DNA from: a virus
Virus record (IMG/VR): IMGVR_UViG_3300024265_000181
Coordinates: 1-27,035 of that record
Direction: 5' to 3' (one strand)
Length of the DNA: 27,035 nt
Positions 14,325 through 24,017 of this stretch are shown here, in pieces. Under the pieces are notes generated by a model that was not told the DNA's origin, searched no databases, and saw only the letters and a program-made list of their open reading frames with translations. Position 1 is the stretch's first letter. Each line of letters begins with the position of its first letter. A program made the translations under genes and the position numbers.

Positions 14325-15872
14325 TCAGAGAACTCCCCCCGGAATCGGCATTTGCTCGTATTCTTGTTCCGTATACCACTCGTCTCCTTCGGCCTGATCT
14401 TCAAACCTATAGAGCTTAGCGTAGGCTCTAGGATCGTACATGGAAATTTCGCCTAGCATTCTGATAATCACGTATAGGGCTGAAATACAGTCATCTGTGG
14501 AACCTTTCTGAGCTTGAAAGCCATCTGCCCTTCTAATATATGTTTTCATCTCCCTATACAGCATCTTGGAGTAAATAAGCATTTCGTCTCGTTCAAACAT
14601 GTTCTTGAAACGAATAGCACAATCTCTCTTGGATGTGGCTGTGGTTGTGAAGCCCAACTTGTTTTTGCCCGGTTCACTCATAAAATGGGCATACATCGGT
14701 GGTTTCTCATCCTGCATATACAAGGCTATCACTGCTCTGCCAACCCCATTAGATTCTACACTAAAATATACATCGTTACTATACTTTTCTAGAAATCCTA
14801 TAACTTTCTTCAGATGAGAATACAACACCACCTCACTAACAGTATTCTCCCTCCACTCCATCACCTGATACATAGATGGAAACTCAAATACTTCAATCAC
14901 AGAATAGTCAGCACCACTTCCTGTGGCCGGGTCTACTCCTATCAAGTACGTCATTTCTTGAGATATTGGCTTAAAAAAGTCCTGTTCTTCAATGTTGAAC
15001 GCAATTGGGATATTCTCAACCAGCTTTTCTGCTTTCTGAACCACACGAGAGTCAAACAATGAACTATCGGATGATATGAACTCACACTCATACTCTTGAC
15101 GCCACCTATGTTCAGTGATATTCTTTATTTCATTCTCTTTAAATTCCTCATCTCTGCCCGGAGGATCATCCCAATAAACTCTACGTGGGAAGAAGTTATT
15201 GCTACCGGCTTCTGCTCCCTTCCAAAGAGTAGAAAACAAATCAACATCCCCATTCGGGGTGGAGGTGATAATCATCTTACCACCAGTACTCAACGTTGGT
15301 GAGATAGCTCCCCAAAACTCTTGCTGGATATGTGCCTTCACGAACGCCAATTCGTCACAGTACAATAAAGAAATGGAAAGACCACGACCTGATGTTTCTG
15401 TGGTTGATCTAGCAATGATGCGTGATCTATTATCAAACGCGGCAGTACCCTTGTTCCAGTTATCGTCTTGTATACCGGGCTTCAACCAATTGGGTAAACC
15501 CTCATAACCCTCCTGAATCCTCTTAATGATTTCCATTGCACTGTCAGCATCCTTGGACACCACCAATATGGTTTTATCATCATGAAATATGGCGTACCAT
15601 AGTAAAAATGCAGCAGATGTTTCTGTTTTACCTGTTTGCCTAGCAGATAGTACGATATTGTATCTGTTCTCTAAATAGTTATTGACTATATCCTTTTGAT
15701 AATCGTACATCTTAAAAGGAATTCGCCCGCGAACTGGATGTGTTATCTTGACATAAGTCTCAATGAAATAAATGGGGGATAGCAAGCACTTCTTTAACTC
15801 TTCTAATTTATCAAAGTCAAGTTCAATGGGTTCATGTGCTTTCTTTAGATATGGGTTGTTCTTTCTGCTCAT
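14325..15872 (-). CDS. 17: Large terminase (DNA-packaging ATPase and nuclease), gp17-like
   Basis: The 515-residue motor protein pumps DNA into proheads and cuts concatemers. The ATPase domain has Walker A SARQTGKT (res. 76-83), Walker B LLYCDE (169-174, catalytic E174) and coupling motif TSTPNG (203-208). The RNase-H-like nuclease has GVDPATGSGADYS (D314, D322), SVESNGVG (E373) and TDDCISAL (D460/D461), so all expected acidic residues are present. Length is close to other T4-type TerL proteins, though shorter than T4 gp17 (610 aa). A TATAAATA followed by AGG lies just before the ATG. A degenerate ATPase-like gene lies directly upstream. Confidence 0.95.
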   Translation of the reverse strand: MSRKNNPYLKKAHEPIELDFDKLEELKKCLLSPIYFIETYVKITHPVRGRIPFKMYDYQKDIVNNYLENRYNIVLSARQTGKTETSAAFLLWYAIFHDDKTILVVSKDADSAMEIIKRIQEGYEGLPNWLKPGIQDDNWNKGTAAFDNRSRIIARSTTETSGRGLSISLLYCDELAFVKAHIQQEFWGAISPTLSTGGKMIITSTPNGDVDLFSTLWKGAEAGSNNFFPRRVYWDDPPGRDEEFKENEIKNITEHRWRQEYECEFISSDSSLFDSRVVQKAEKLVENIPIAFNIEEQDFFKPISQEMTYLIGVDPATGSGADYSVIEVFEFPSMYQVMEWRENTVSEVVLYSHLKKVIGFLEKYSNDVYFSVESNGVGRAVIALYMQDEKPPMYAHFMSEPGKNKLGFTTTATSKRDCAIRFKNMFERDEMLIYSKMLYREMKTYIRRADGFQAQKGSTDDCISALYVIIRMLGEISMYDPRAYAKLYRFEDQAEGDEWYTEQEYEQMPIPGGVL

Positions 15873-15876
15873 ACCT

Positions 15877-15915
15877 TATTTATATGAGCAAATCTTATTA
15901 GCAACCGGCTAATAA
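15877..15915 (-). promoter_or_regulatory. Hairpin and T4-late-promoter-like TATAAATA before the terminase
   Basis: An 8-bp stem (15895-15902 with 15908-15915, five-base loop) spans the stop of the upstream gene. It is followed on the minus strand by TATAAATA (15884-15877), identical to the T4 late -10 consensus, only four bases before the terminase ATG. A transcript from it would be nearly leaderless, so it may be chance in A/T-rich DNA. Confidence 0.3.
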
Positions 15916-16514
15916 CCGTAGTTATAACCGTAGTTCTGGTCGTACTCCGGCATTTTGTTTACTATCATCTTTCCCGATGGTCGTAAATGAGCCATTATCT
16001 CGTACAACTCTCGATCAGATAAGGCCGTGGGAGCATCCAGAAATATATAATCAGATGATCTTCCTTTTATGGAAATTATCAAATTATCAGAATGCAAAAA
16101 ATCAATGGCCCCCATTTCATTAGAATTAAGATGTTTTAATACTATTTTCTTATTAGTGGGGTATTCCATGACAATCCCATTTATAGTAAAAGATCGGAAT
16201 ATGCCGCGCATCATATGATCATTTAAATGTTTTTTATTAAACAACATTATCACATTCTTTCCACACAAGGCATAGTAAGAGGCAATGATAGCCAATAAAG
16301 TAGATCCCCCCGTTGCTCTTCGTTGTGACCTCGTGACAAGGGTATTTTCGCCATAGAAAACTTTTTCAACGAACCGCTGTTCAGAGTCATCAAATTTTAT
16401 ATCAGAAAACAGATGGTGGACATCATTAAACCGACAATGGTTTCTAATAAAGTCCACTATTCCGTTCGGAACATGTTCGTATGACTTACCTAATGAGGGA
16501 AGCCTCGTTGCCAT
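15909..16514 (-). CDS. Terminase-like ATPase-domain protein with degenerate P-loop
   Basis: The 201-residue product aligns by eye with the ATPase core of the large terminase encoded just downstream. NTLVTRSQRRATGGSTLLA matches the strand-and-P-loop segment YNIVLSARQTGKTETSA, CGKNVIMLFNKKHLNDHMM matches the next strand, DYIFLDAPTA matches Walker B, and LRPSGKMIVNKMPEYD matches the coupling region. The P-loop lysine is replaced (GGST instead of GKT), the catalytic Glu after the Walker B Asp is not evident (DAP), and there is no nuclease domain. It ends in a Tyr/Asn/Gly repeat. ATG 16514 is preferred over 16538 because GGAG precedes it; it overlaps the upstream gene by 29 bases. Confidence 0.6.
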   Translation of the reverse strand: MATRLPSLGKSYEHVPNGIVDFIRNHCRFNDVHHLFSDIKFDDSEQRFVEKVFYGENTLVTRSQRRATGGSTLLAIIASYYALCGKNVIMLFNKKHLNDHMMRGIFRSFTINGIVMEYPTNKKIVLKHLNSNEMGAIDFLHSDNLIISIKGRSSDYIFLDAPTALSDRELYEIMAHLRPSGKMIVNKMPEYDQNYGYNYGY

Positions 16515-18204
16515 AATAGCTTGCTCTCCATTCCCCATTGATTACATTAATCAATGCTCTGGAACCGTTGGGGTAGATGATACAATGTGTGTGCAACCAA
16601 CTTGATGGCCCCACGGCATATTCAAGATCCCTTCTGGCTGACACACCAACTTGATATGCACCTTCAGTGATACCCGGTGAATGTGAATGACCGATAACAG
16701 TCTTGGGACCAATTTTTGCAAAAGACGATATATTTCCACGAGCACCGTTAATACCAACATCACCATGGAAAATAATTTCAATACCAGCAATCATATAACT
16801 TTCATCACGCTTCAAGAACCGTGTGATTTTGCTTGAGGGTAACCCATCCTGATCCAGTGGGTTATTGCACCAAAGTTCAAATGCTGGGATTGTTTCAAAC
16901 CCGGTTGATGTCTTCCTCACGTTTGACAACTGCTGTAGTTTCATATAGTGAAATAAACGGGCGTTTTCTGGATCTAATTTAGGGTCACAATCATTCAACC
17001 AACGATCAAACGCTTCGTTATGATTTGACGGCACTATCAGATTGGTCATTCCCGGTCTAGTAATCTTACTAATGAAGTCTGCTGAAATCTGTAACCCTTC
17101 TTCAACATTATCACGACCTAAGTGATGCTTACCGTATGCTATTATATCGTTGTTTTTGTGGTGATGGTTTCTACGATAGAAATCTTCAACATCATGAAGG
17201 ACCATAATTTTTGGATGCAAAGCACCAACTATGGACTGTGGGCCAATAAACGTGGCATTCTCTACGCCTTCATCAAGAAATTCAGCATGAATATCTCCGG
17301 GGACAAATCCTGCTATACCTTCATGCTTTGTTCTACCAGTAGTAGTGTAAAGATATTCAAGGTCATAAAAAGAACCATCCTCATCACCATGAACTTGACG
17401 AATGTGGAATTTATCGTTGTCAACTTCAACAATTATGGCACTGATATTATGGTGAAACTTGCCTTTATGACCAGCTTTACTATCGGAGTAATTATCAACT
17501 GTACACGTTCCAGATGTGGTGAGAATCTTAGGCATGTTCTTGTTCGGGGTGGCAACCGTTTTCATCTGGACTTTTGGATGACCAAATATAGCGGAATCAG
17601 ATCCCGTCAACCCATCATACCCAGACAACGGAATATTGGCAGTTGGCTGTATTTTAGCTTCAGCAATAAGTCGTAACCCCTTACATAACTGAACATCAGA
17701 AGTAACAAGATACGGTTCTAACTCTTTAAACCAATATTCATCAGCTTTGTTTGCTGCTGTCCATATTGATGTTGGGTTTCTGTACCTGACCGGTATGACC
17801 ATATATCTACCGTTACGTATTTCACAATACTTAAGGCAAGTTTTGTTAAATCTATCATGGACTGGAGTAGCGTTCTGTGCAGAAGTTATGACAAAAATTT
17901 GTTTCTTACTTTTGGAAACTTTAGCTGGTGTCGGGCCAGCATCCTTTCTAAGGATATTCTTATATGTTCTTTCGAAAAGTTCAACCTTTTCGATATCTAT
18001 TGAACCATCGAAGTCGTCTTGAAACGGTAAATACGAGAGAAACAAACCAACCCTTTCAATTATCCTTAGCCTTCGTCTGGAGATGGTGTCAACTTCTACT
18101 CCATGATAGTTGGCAAATTCTTGCCTTGTAAATTTTGCTGTTTGTGCAGCGTTATATCTTGCTATGAAATCTTTGTTGTCTGTTTTTATTATTATATTAG
18201 TCAT
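16486..18204 (-). CDS. Metallophosphoesterase-like protein resembling phage T5 A1
   Basis: The 572-residue product carries the ordered metal-binding motifs of calcineurin-like phosphoesterases: GDIH (res. 303-306), LHDVED (336-341), SNHNE (393-397), FHGD (479-482) and GHSHS (505-509). A helix-turn-helix-like segment (FTRQEFANYHGVEVDTISRR) is at res. 25-44. Large phage proteins of this type include T5 A1, which is needed for second-step DNA transfer and host DNA breakdown. The match to A1 is from memory and less certain than the phosphoesterase call. The ATG has AGG seven bases upstream. Position between terminase genes suggests nuclease action on DNA, which is inference. Confidence 0.65.
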   Translation of the reverse strand: MTNIIIKTDNKDFIARYNAAQTAKFTRQEFANYHGVEVDTISRRRLRIIERVGLFLSYLPFQDDFDGSIDIEKVELFERTYKNILRKDAGPTPAKVSKSKKQIFVITSAQNATPVHDRFNKTCLKYCEIRNGRYMVIPVRYRNPTSIWTAANKADEYWFKELEPYLVTSDVQLCKGLRLIAEAKIQPTANIPLSGYDGLTGSDSAIFGHPKVQMKTVATPNKNMPKILTTSGTCTVDNYSDSKAGHKGKFHHNISAIIVEVDNDKFHIRQVHGDEDGSFYDLEYLYTTTGRTKHEGIAGFVPGDIHAEFLDEGVENATFIGPQSIVGALHPKIMVLHDVEDFYRRNHHHKNNDIIAYGKHHLGRDNVEEGLQISADFISKITRPGMTNLIVPSNHNEAFDRWLNDCDPKLDPENARLFHYMKLQQLSNVRKTSTGFETIPAFELWCNNPLDQDGLPSSKITRFLKRDESYMIAGIEIIFHGDVGINGARGNISSFAKIGPKTVIGHSHSPGITEGAYQVGVSARRDLEYAVGPSSWLHTHCIIYPNGSRALINVINGEWRASYYGNEASLIR

Positions 18205-18212
18205 GTGGTTAC

Positions 18213-19316
18213 CTAATCAGTTTTAAAATACGCATCCAGTTTCCTAGATGGGGTAAAATAAATCTTGTATCTGTATCCCGTAACATTCTTAGCATACTTT
18301 TCCTTCTTAAACCGCAACTTAAACAGATCATTGCCGTCCTCATCAGCAATGCGGATTGATGGGTTTAGATGCTCGGGGCATATAGCTTCCAGTTTAGCAT
18401 CATATAAATTACAAAACATATTCTCTGCATTAAAGTTCCCGTTAGCGGTGTCATCCGTAGATATTAATATGCACTCACCATCATACGAAATAGACACACC
18501 ATAACATGCTTCGATCATATGCTGTAAAAGGTTTTGTTTGAAATCAACTAGAGCAGAGTCAAATGTTCTAGCAAACCCCATGTTTATTCTTTTACATAAT
18601 TCTATGTACAAATTACGTGTGGCCAACTCAACACTTTCAACTGTTGGTGATCCATTATTGTGGGCAGTCTGATAGTATACAGACGAATCGACTCCAATGT
18701 CAAGCCCTAAATGTGCATTTATAAATTTACGCTGGGAGTCAAACCCATAATCTTTATTCAATTCTTTCTGCCCAATCCCGCCAATTCCAGTCTTAAAATT
18801 GTAAATTGGTAAAAATGACTGAAACACATTAACTTTAGTATTGTCAACCATTACACTGGTGTCTCTAGGCTTATCAACTGAGATATTGTCTACATCTATC
18901 ACAATCCTGTTAATGACACCATTGTTAGTAACTAGAGATACCATTTGGTTAAACCCGGCATCATCATTTACAAAGTCAATGATGTGGTTGACCATAACGA
19001 ATTCACGTGATAATGTATCATGCATAAGCTTTCCTAGAAGATATGCTTTTGCTGCCTCCGAAACAGTTACTCGTATAGAAATTTGGTCTACAGTACCGGT
19101 GGATGGTTCTATACTTTGAAAATCAACACTAGATTTACCACGAGCCAGATATCCCAAAAGATGAACCACATGATCTGAAGCCAATTTAACACCTTGGTTT
19201 CGTATAAGAAACACAGAGGCTATACAGTACGCCAACACCGTATTAGCGACTTCATCAAGAACTGCTTGAGACGGCGTTGGTAAATACAGTTCAGCTAAGT
19301 GGCTATGCTTAACCAT
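18213..19316 (-). CDS. Unknown protein between small terminase and phosphoesterase genes
   Basis: The 367-residue product starts at ATG 19316 (MVKHSHLAELYLP), preferred because AGGG lies five bases upstream; a GTG at 19328 lacks one. It overlaps the small-terminase stop by eight bases. The sequence is soluble mixed alpha/beta, with two clear segments: VFQSFLPIYNFKTGIGGIGQ in the middle, and a C-terminal basic block (LFKLRFKKEKYAKNVTG). There are no Walker, nuclease or zinc motifs, signal peptide or membrane segments. I do not recognise the family. Its size and position in the packaging operon make it worth a structure prediction. Confidence 0.6.
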   Translation of the reverse strand: MVKHSHLAELYLPTPSQAVLDEVANTVLAYCIASVFLIRNQGVKLASDHVVHLLGYLARGKSSVDFQSIEPSTGTVDQISIRVTVSEAAKAYLLGKLMHDTLSREFVMVNHIIDFVNDDAGFNQMVSLVTNNGVINRIVIDVDNISVDKPRDTSVMVDNTKVNVFQSFLPIYNFKTGIGGIGQKELNKDYGFDSQRKFINAHLGLDIGVDSSVYYQTAHNNGSPTVESVELATRNLYIELCKRINMGFARTFDSALVDFKQNLLQHMIEACYGVSISYDGECILISTDDTANGNFNAENMFCNLYDAKLEAICPEHLNPSIRIADEDGNDLFKLRFKKEKYAKNVTGYRYKIYFTPSRKLDAYFKTD

Positions 19317-19758
19317 CATTTCCCTCACTCAATTTCTTACGTAGTTCATCCAATAACGCACTTCTATCATCAACTATCAGAGTGTTATTAGTTACCCTTG
19401 GACCGCCACCAGTTCCTTTAGAGTCTAATTTATCTTTATGTTCTTTCATCTTTGCCTTATGAGCGGCGGCATTCAAAGCAGCATTCAAGTGTTGGACAGA
19501 TACTTCACCCATGCGGGCTTTGTATCTTCCCTCTACTCGGTGTACCTCTTCAGACAGTTCATCGAACCCATCCATAGCACTATCGTATATCTCTTGAAAC
19601 TGCTCTTCAATTTCTTCATCTTTTGGATCATATTCTTCATCCTTGACCAACTCTCCCCCTCGTTCGAACACCTCAATCTCCGTTGAGTTAGGTTCGATAT
19701 CGAAGAAATCCTCAAGTGGGTGCTCTATGACTTTAACAACTTTCTTCTTATTGTTCAT
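19309..19758 (-). CDS. 16: Candidate small terminase subunit, gp16-like
   Basis: The 149-residue product has the architecture of T4-type gp16, which recognises viral DNA and stimulates gp17. An acidic N-terminal segment with YDPKDEEIEEQFQEIYDSAM is followed by two long helices (DELSEEVHRVEGRYKARMG and VQHLNAALNAAAHKAKMKE). A linker then leads to VTNNTLIVDDRSALLDELRK, matching the N-x-T-x-F-V-G-S-xx-EL-type ending of gp16 proteins. Length is close to T4 gp16 (164 aa). It is upstream of the large terminase as expected, but separated from it by three genes. A CATAAATA late-promoter-like site precedes it. Confidence 0.55.
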   Translation of the reverse strand: MNNKKKVVKVIEHPLEDFFDIEPNSTEIEVFERGGELVKDEEYDPKDEEIEEQFQEIYDSAMDGFDELSEEVHRVEGRYKARMGEVSVQHLNAALNAAAHKAKMKEHKDKLDSKGTGGGPRVTNNTLIVDDRSALLDELRKKLSEGNDG

Positions 19759-22015: not shown

Positions 22016-22336
22016 TCAAAAAATGTTATGGTTCTTTTCAAGGTTAGCAATATACAAACGGCGGCTCTTTGATGATGGCCCAAAATAATATCCATACCAT
22101 CCACCTAGTCTAACTCCGATCCAATACACCCACGACAAGAAGGGGAACCCTTTGGCCTTTATACAGGCCCTTAGTTTTTTATCCGCCACTGGTCGTTTAA
22201 CATTTGTAGAATAATCTATATCATGTTGTTCGCAACAATCAAAGAATACCAGATCTGGAGCCAAAGAGCAACCGTCTGAGACAAAATCTCCTAAATATTT
22301 TAACTTTTCTATGGTATTCGGGTTACGTTTCATCAT
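22016..22336 (-). CDS. Phospholipase A2-like small protein
   Basis: The product of about 107 residues contains DGCSLAPD followed by DCCEQHDIDY and then ADKKLRACIKAKG. This is the CC-xx-HD-xx-Y active-site helix and partner helix of phospholipase A2-like proteins; parvovirus capsid PLA2 shows a similar HDxAY. The His-Asp dyad is present. A hydrophobic patch (FLSWVYWIGVRLGGWYGYYF) near the end may touch membranes. ATG 22336 overlaps the upstream stop by 14 bases; ATG 22357 is an alternative. It directly follows two virion genes, so a virion or lysis role is possible but inferred. Confidence 0.6.
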   Translation of the reverse strand: MMKRNPNTIEKLKYLGDFVSDGCSLAPDLVFFDCCEQHDIDYSTNVKRPVADKKLRACIKAKGFPFLSWVYWIGVRLGGWYGYYFGPSSKSRRLYIANLEKNHNIF

Positions 22337-24017
22337 CAAAGAAGGCATCCTTGTCATCTGGAGGGGTGACAGTAGAAGTTTCTGAATCTAATAACTTCTG
22401 AAGTTTGGCCTCAGTGTTCTTAAATTCTGCTCTACGGTCTTTCTCAAGGAACACCCAATCCTTTTTGATACTCGAAAATTTATGTAACCTAGCTGGAATA
22501 CCTGATCGGGTTGTAGTATATGTTAAACGATGGTAGTCTCCGTCTGTTGGGCTGGTTGGGAACACATCACCCTGTGTGTAGGGTTCGCCATTAGGTGGCA
22601 TAGCATCAAAACCAAACTGGGCACGAATCCTATCTATTTTCCTAGCAATCTCGGTACTTCCAGTGCCACTGTTTTCTTCAGCCCAATCATAAAACGCTGT
22701 GGGAACATCTGCTATGTCAGCAAAATCCACGCCGCGCTCTGGAACTTGTGTATTTTGTTCAGCTTTAATAGTTTGGGAAATCCCAGCAACATCCTGATAT
22801 TTTTTATCGTCTTGGCCATCATTTATATCTGCTGTCCCATGTACATCTATGTCTTCAGTTAATTTACCAAGAATATCCTGAGTCTCCTGAGACGCCATTA
22901 CTGGCTTGGCAATCAACCGTTGCATTACTGGAATCCAGTTCGGAGTATAACTATTTGTGCTCCAAGCAACGTCAGTCACTTCAACGTAACGTAACACGGC
23001 AGTCAAATCAGCGCTGTATTGTGTCTCCGCTGGTAATTGTAGAAGGTCACCTATAACAAAGGGTCTACCCAACAATTCCACCATAGAAGAAAAACTAACC
23101 TCTATAACCCATTCGTTACCAGTATACATACTACCAAAACCATGCTTGGCATTAAACGCCTGAATATCTATTGGCTGATAGGATGCCTTGATTCTTGTTG
23201 GGTTCTCATCATAATTTCGGTCACGGTTTTCTAACAAAATCCTGTCTTGTATATTATCAACGGCAGTGTTTTCATAGTCAAGCAGTTGTAGGGCTTCAAT
23301 TTCCCACGCATCCTCTGCCCCACCATTGAATTCTACTGGGCGAAGTCTCCAATACCGGGAAGGCACACTACGCTTGAAGTTAACACGGGCCGCACCTTCA
23401 CAATCAGGGAGATCAACGATCTGTACGCCATACCATTTAATACCATCAGAAGACCTTTCCACACGAGCCCTCGTAACACGATTCTTTTCTCGGCAACCCT
23501 GACGAATTTTCAAAGAAGAAACATCGTTTTTCACAAACGTCTCTACTCCATATCGCTTTCTAGCATTGTCTAATAGAATTTCACCAAAATCGTAGCCAAT
23601 ATACGCACTAGTAATATCATCACCAAGTTGTATGGATCTCCATGGGGTTCTTAGCAGATCAAAAGCATTAGCTGCTGGGAAATTGGGGTGATCACCGTTT
23701 GATATAGGCGAACCATTACCAGTTAAATCTTGCAAAGTACCCTGTTCATGGACTCCTAGAAGCCTGTGTACATTAATTACGGCACCGCCAATGGTAATGG
23801 TTTCGCTTATATATGAATCAATAAGCGCGGAGTCTGAGGACTCTGATAGTTCCCACGCTGGGTTAGGTGTAATAGCGTCTCCCGGTATCCCCGGATTCAA
23901 CTGTGTACAGATTCGTGCAACTGCATCATCTGTTGGTGGTGCTATAAAGTTACCATCACCATCAACAGGGCAATCCCCACTATCCAATAATGCTTCTAAC
24001 TGACTCGTAACGCTCAT
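22323..24017 (-). CDS. Virion neck protein candidate (gp14-like) with discoidin-like domain
   Basis: The 564-residue product directly follows the gp13-like gene with a three-base gap, as 14 follows 13 in T4. Residues of roughly 120-235 look like an F5/8 type C (discoidin) jelly roll: AYIGYDFGE, then RARVERSSDGIKWYGVQI, PSRYWRLRPVEFNGG and AWEIEALQLLDY. Around res. 300-380 lies GRPFVIGDLLQLPAETQYS then RYVEVTDVAWSTNSYTP, comparable to the KEGDLIYFP ... FEINWVEP core of T4 gp14. The rest is linker and coiled coil. It is twice the size of T4 gp14 (256 aa), so the gp14 call is moderate. AGGG lies six bases before the ATG. Confidence 0.55.
   Translation of the reverse strand: MSVTSQLEALLDSGDCPVDGDGNFIAPPTDDAVARICTQLNPGIPGDAITPNPAWELSESSDSALIDSYISETITIGGAVINVHRLLGVHEQGTLQDLTGNGSPISNGDHPNFPAANAFDLLRTPWRSIQLGDDITSAYIGYDFGEILLDNARKRYGVETFVKNDVSSLKIRQGCREKNRVTRARVERSSDGIKWYGVQIVDLPDCEGAARVNFKRSVPSRYWRLRPVEFNGGAEDAWEIEALQLLDYENTAVDNIQDRILLENRDRNYDENPTRIKASYQPIDIQAFNAKHGFGSMYTGNEWVIEVSFSSMVELLGRPFVIGDLLQLPAETQYSADLTAVLRYVEVTDVAWSTNSYTPNWIPVMQRLIAKPVMASQETQDILGKLTEDIDVHGTADINDGQDDKKYQDVAGISQTIKAEQNTQVPERGVDFADIADVPTAFYDWAEENSGTGSTEIARKIDRIRAQFGFDAMPPNGEPYTQGDVFPTSPTDGDYHRLTYTTTRSGIPARLHKFSSIKKDWVFLEKDRRAEFKNTEAKLQKLLDSETSTVTPPDDKDAFFDDET

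Follow-up and report, generated by a model that had tools for sequence, protein, structure and literature searches.

The gene directly upstream of the large terminase gene (TerL) of a T4-superfamily phage most plausibly encodes a terminase ATPase-domain pseudoenzyme (a pseudo-terminase) that is under selection and serves the packaging motor as a nucleotide-insensitive partner or regulator, a reading to which we assign a probability of roughly 55%. The analyzed stretch of DNA (hereafter the window; 27,035 bases) belongs to an IMG/VR virus record and carries all of its convincing genes on the minus strand. By TerL, the nearest sequenced relatives of this phage are the jumbo phages XacN1, RAS14, and CM1 (~51% identity). 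The pseudo-terminase gene (15909–16514, minus strand) encodes 201 aa, and its stop lies 36 bp before the start of TerL, which follows on the same strand. The maximal ORF is slightly longer (15909–16538, minus strand, 209 aa), but on the sequence 16514 is the better start, because a GGAG ribosome-binding site lies 10 nt upstream of it and because the "NGE..IM" that is conserved upstream of the start in relatives is explained by the other frame of an overlapping gene for a T5 A1-like protein.

The protein retains the motif order of a TerL ATPase domain and has lost the residues expected to act on ATP. Its P-loop region reads VTRSQRRATGGSTLL, and an alignment of 27 stand-alone proteins and 30 TerLs places a degenerate Walker A at residues 66–72 (RATGGST, vs RQTGKTE in TerL; 16299–16319, minus strand), in which Arg is retained and Lys is replaced by Gly—i.e. 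Gly70 occupies the position of TerL Lys82. An extra Arg stands directly ahead of this P-loop. The Walker B strand (residues 156–161, YIFLDA; 16032–16049, minus strand) keeps Asp160 and has Ala161 at the position of the catalytic Glu174 of TerL, and a coupling-motif-like strand follows at residues 180–190 (SGKMIVNKMPE, vs GGKMIITSTPN in TerL; 15945–15977, minus strand). The protein ends just past this strand and has no C-terminal RNase H/RuvC-like nuclease domain; its longest relatives stop at the boundary between the ATPase and nuclease domains, and in the clade of the window protein the C-terminal lid is absent as well.

The neighboring TerL (14325–15872, minus strand, 515 aa) is intact and of the T4 type, with Walker A RQTGKTE, a Walker B region YCDELAF, a nuclease domain, matches to Pfam Terminase_6N (PF03237; 72.8 bits) and Terminase_6C, and 51% identity to the TerL of XacN1. 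Some TerL genes of other phages look divided or interrupted. In Atu_ph07, TerL is divided between 2 ORFs inside the P-loop (L042:5983–8174), the first ending in GRQLGKS followed by intein-like sequence and the second carrying GILSHN and then TTVAAAYLLW, so that the P-loop looks like a split-intein site. Two further TerL genes (L013:3375–6236 and L077:2129–5029) have in-frame intein-like insertions just before the coupling-motif region; TerL inteins have previously been reported in RaK2 and K64-1 (PMC5259590).

The catalytic loss is a property of the family. Among 27 different stand-alone TerL-ATPase-like proteins, Walker A Lys is found in only 3 (L072, phiM12, and phiN3), with Ile, Gly, Thr, Val, Leu, Ala, or Ser in its place elsewhere, and the catalytic Glu of Walker B in only 2 (phiM12 and phiN3); L072 has the Lys, but DN in place of DE. 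By contrast, the P-loop Gly and the Ser/Thr after the Lys position are present in 27/27, the P-loop Arg in 26/27, and the Walker B Asp in 23/27, while all 30 TerLs used for comparison retain Arg, Lys, Asp, and Glu. The catalytic residues have thus been lost specifically, and the surrounding scaffold stays. The retained Arg corresponds to gp17 R162 and to R56 of HK97, a position that is conserved and important in packaging ATPases (PMC9410871). A strain defect or sequencing error is excluded by an identical copy in a second contig (L002) and by the absence of Lys from 24 of the 27 relatives.

Searched as a single sequence against Pfam and PHROGs, the window protein gives nothing convincing; we regard a match to phrog_32713/Bacillus SBSphiJ2 (E = 2e-4, residues 141–207) as chance, given that it spans the C-terminal third only and that the matched protein has no P-loop. 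The link to TerL comes from profiles. An HMM built from 19 family members, all from outside the clade of the window protein, recovers that protein with 36.6 bits (E = 3.7e-10), whereas the best of 2000 shuffled window-clade proteins scores 9.7 bits. Conversely, when 1451 ORFs are searched with an HMM of the window clade only, the best matches apart from the clade itself are TerLs and further stand-alone TerL-like ORFs. Compared directly with TerL, the profile of the window clade alone gives a weak match (probability 8%), so that the link needs intermediate members, and the profile of the family as a whole matches TerL across 235 columns. Such intermediates exist: ORFs occupying this position in uncultured relatives (L008, L009, L010, L011, L013, L059, L061, L064, L071, L072, L074, L075, and L085) form a series that runs from degraded copies to an obvious TerL ATPase domain. 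At the latter end, L085:495–1286 (263 aa) spans an entire TerL ATPase domain, with a stop exactly where the nuclease domain would be expected to start. It matches the T4 gp17 crystal sequence (2o0h, 2.9e-10), phrog_5989 (terminase, 2e-34), and, above cutoff, Pfam Terminase_6N (PF03237), and nonetheless reads RQTGASL for RQTGKTE and WDNA for CDEF (DN, not DE).

Structure prediction points to the same relationship. An AlphaFold2 model from a 15-member alignment (pLDDT 85.9, pTM 0.86) has T4 gp17 as its first 4 PDB matches in Foldseek (E 2.7e-7, TM 0.67), followed by the TerLs of P74-26 and D6E. As that alignment includes recognizably TerL-like members, a second model was made from 6 window-clade sequences only, and it too has gp17 as its first 4 PDB matches (pLDDT 72.0, E = 5e-5, TM 0.65). 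The window protein is thus predicted to have the ASCE ATPase core fold of gp17. An earlier note on this DNA, made from the sequence alone, had described a terminase-ATPase lookalike whose P-loop is broken, located beside the real terminase and lacking an obvious catalytic Glu and the nuclease domain, and all of this is borne out. Its further proposal, that the protein is a regulatory or structural subunit of the motor or a dominant-negative-like partner, is at most a putative role, and some jumbo phages manage without the protein. It had also named an unrelated fold, or orthologs with an intact P-loop, as grounds for abandoning the idea; the predicted fold is that of gp17, and the orthologs lack the Lys, L072, phiM12, and phiN3 excepted.

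How such a protein might work can be sketched from homology and gene position only, from which we infer a role in the packaging motor. The gene would descend from a duplicated T4-type large-terminase ATPase domain, and would have lost the nuclease domain, Walker A lysine, Walker B glutamate, and, in the window clade, the C-terminal lid, while retaining the P-loop arginine and backbone motif along with the core fold. Presumably unable to hydrolyze ATP and translated beside TerL, the product may dock onto TerL, TerS, or the portal by way of the faces with which TerL subunits contact one another. It could thereby influence how the motor assembles, starts, or pauses, acting either as a partner that caps or chaperones or as a dead subunit in substoichiometric amounts. 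A natural dead paralog could be a brake, a spacer, or an assembly partner, whether inside the ring or against it. In T4, the motor is a gp17 pentamer, and mixed rings in which 1, 2, or even 3 subunits have a defective Walker A can still package DNA, though at lower velocity and with more frequent pausing (PMC8589836); a dead subunit is therefore compatible with function.

The surrounding genes are those of a compact packaging cluster in the order TerS, a 371-aa protein, a T5 A1-like protein, pseudo-terminase, and TerL. TerS is of the gp16 type (19309–19758, minus strand; phrog_445, terminase small subunit, E = 1e-12); we rejected the small terminase as an identity for the window protein, as it has no match of the phrog_445 type and TerS is this separate gene. 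The 371-aa protein (18213–19328, minus strand) has no match in PHROGs, and its position between TerS and the A1-like gene is kept in L009, L010, L011, and L013. The T5 A1-like DNA transfer protein (16486–18204, minus strand; phrog_1745, E = 2e-152) shares a 29-nt overlap with the start of the pseudo-terminase gene, and its presence inside the packaging cluster, which extends across the whole group (also XacN1, RAS14, and uncultured relatives), is unexpected for a T4-type phage. Elsewhere in the window, a 113-aa protein (22016–22357, minus strand; phrog_6098, function unknown) carries CCEQHDIDY, which resembles a phospholipase A2-type calcium/histidine motif. The location of the pseudo-terminase gene between TerS and TerL would also suit a role in the packaging pathway outside the motor ring, in which the protein holds TerL monomers or the nuclease inactive or shares the role of TerS. 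We consider this unlikely, since a gp16-type TerS is already encoded and many family members have no added DNA-binding part.

Proteins that resemble a free-standing TerL ATPase domain are spread widely across phages of the T4 superfamily, most of them jumbo phages, and uncultured relatives of XacN1/RAS14 are among the carriers. The copy lies directly upstream of TerL in 121Q, in PBECO4 and RaK2 with their respective relatives, and in CBB, GAP32, Serratia BF, and Erwinia Hallingskeid; most members adjoin TerL even though the proteins diverge to 20–40% identity. Copies away from TerL are found in Phosso and Atu_ph07, and one downstream of it in L069. In XacN1, ORF261 is a weak candidate (E = 0.045 and 6.5e-5 in 2 profile searches; motif KRMHGITT) that probably represents a copy away from TerL, and ORF256, directly upstream of TerL, is unrelated to the family. 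The RAS14 copy (161 aa, E = 0.09) was placed mainly by its position and by the profile of an alignment (A1) that itself includes RAS14. We detected no copy in the complete genomes of T4, Munch, fENko-Kae01, and PA5oct, nor in the partial Vibrio 2.275.O genome or a 317-kb uncultured contig, and a scan of the collection with a RaK2-type alignment (A3) matched only 121Q and RaK2; another alignment (A2) is nowhere conserved strongly enough to serve for such a scan. This patchy presence makes the pseudo-terminase an accessory rather than a universal part. Its lack of universality, the positions in Phosso, Atu_ph07, and L069, and the fast evolution of the protein all count against a motor role, and adjacency to TerL cannot alone prove a packaging function.

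In a tree computed without the 2 catalytic columns, 23 degenerate members form one clade (98/97). Outside it, L085 falls at the base of the XacN1-type TerLs, L072 elsewhere, and phiM12/phiN3 apart, so that a single ancestral origin for all copies is unsupported; with such long branches these placements are unsure, and any count of duplications from the tree would be tentative. The pseudo-terminase evolves several times faster than TerL, and members shorten progressively from 263 to 161 aa. These 2 features, together with the patchy presence and the diversity of the Lys replacements, are what would be expected of a fading relic—i.e. a partial TerL duplication that has no function and is merely carried along. 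However, frames are intact in every lineage despite the divergence, and dN/dS is low where it is measurable (~0.1–0.2): 0.22 for CBB/GAP32, 0.205 for phiM12/phiN3 (the intact pair), and 0.08 for RaK2/KP13-7 (from only 7 differences). These values argue that the protein is maintained in the lineages concerned. The P-loop Arg and Gly, the Ser/Thr, and the Walker B Asp are, moreover, near-invariant, and the window gene has a ribosome-binding site at its start. Simple decay, which the earlier note had also disfavored, is on this evidence quite improbable.

Arms-race dynamics could produce a similar pattern. The protein might be a TerL decoy that occupies bacterial large-terminase sensors (Avs1–3 type) while lacking the nuclease or nucleotide-bound features that would activate them; a TerL-like fold with no active site, fast evolution, and a patchy distribution would all fit, and Avs3-bound TerL (8dgc) is among the fold matches. 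We find this doubtful, as the gene sits in the packaging cluster beside TerL and not among early accessory genes, and as the window protein matches no known defense-system family (no match to PADLOC anti-phage defense models at E up to 1). Finally, packaging ATPases do vary, with HK97 TerL needing an extra P-loop lysine (PMC9410871), and the window protein does have the extra Arg before its P-loop, but an active ATPase with an unorthodox P-loop (e.g. with a basic residue supplied from elsewhere) is very hard to reconcile with the loss of both Lys and catalytic Glu in nearly all members and with such varied replacements.

Tailed-phage packaging motors are regarded as rings in which every ATPase subunit is the same. 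That many giant phages carry a conserved, catalytically dead version of the ATPase domain next to TerL suggests a second, noncatalytic player in the packaging of very large genomes, our preferred reading being that of a nucleotide-insensitive partner or regulator. More tentatively, the motor of many T4-superfamily jumbo phages could possibly include a dedicated dead subunit, derived from a duplicated TerL ATPase domain, that regulates assembly or pausing regardless of nucleotide, which would make it a natural hetero-oligomeric ring. Because artificial doping with dead subunits slows the T4 motor and adds pausing, the natural dead paralog is directly testable as a regulator. Annotations of such genes as "truncated terminase" or "hypothetical" can be corrected.

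Truncated copies have been reported before: CBB_274 was described as a truncated large terminase that is also found in other RaK2-like phages and in phiM12 and phiN3 (Buttimer et al. 2017, PMC5259590). That paper does not mention loss of catalytic residues in these proteins, and a search of open-access literature turned up no mention of the catalytic loss, of the split between intact (phiM12) and dead copies, or of a wider family including the clade of the window protein; nor is a pseudo-terminase mentioned in the passages retrieved from comparative and review papers on jumbo phages. Within that scope, the conserved catalytic loss and the breadth of the family seem to be new.

Compared with T4 gp17 and T4-type TerLs (PF03237, phrog_5989, phrog_2), the window protein shares the predicted ATPase core fold, the motif order, the P-loop Arg and Gly, the Walker B Asp, and the coupling-like strand, and differs in that it lacks the Walker A Lys, the Walker B Glu, the nuclease domain, and, like the rest of its clade, the lid. 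The truncated terminases of the Sinorhizobium phages phiM12 and phiN3 are likewise stand-alone TerL ATPase domains of ~200 aa directly upstream of TerL, but they have intact GKTT and DE and a separate tree position, and are probably a separate type that may be active. In both phages (L100 and L120), the full-length TerL reads RQSAKTT, with Ala for the conserved P-loop Gly, and the adjacent truncated copy has the canonical ATGKTT. A further parallel is the second, truncated terminase found in RaK2-like phages (CBB_274; the 121Q/RaK2 members belong to phrog_27915). Encoded directly upstream of TerL, these proteins of ~230 aa have no nuclease domain and carry Leu, Thr, or Ile for Lys and, unlike the window protein, a C-terminal extension. 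With its homologous ATPase domain, Lys-less P-loop, absent nuclease domain, and gene beside TerL, the window protein fits this CBB_274-like group.
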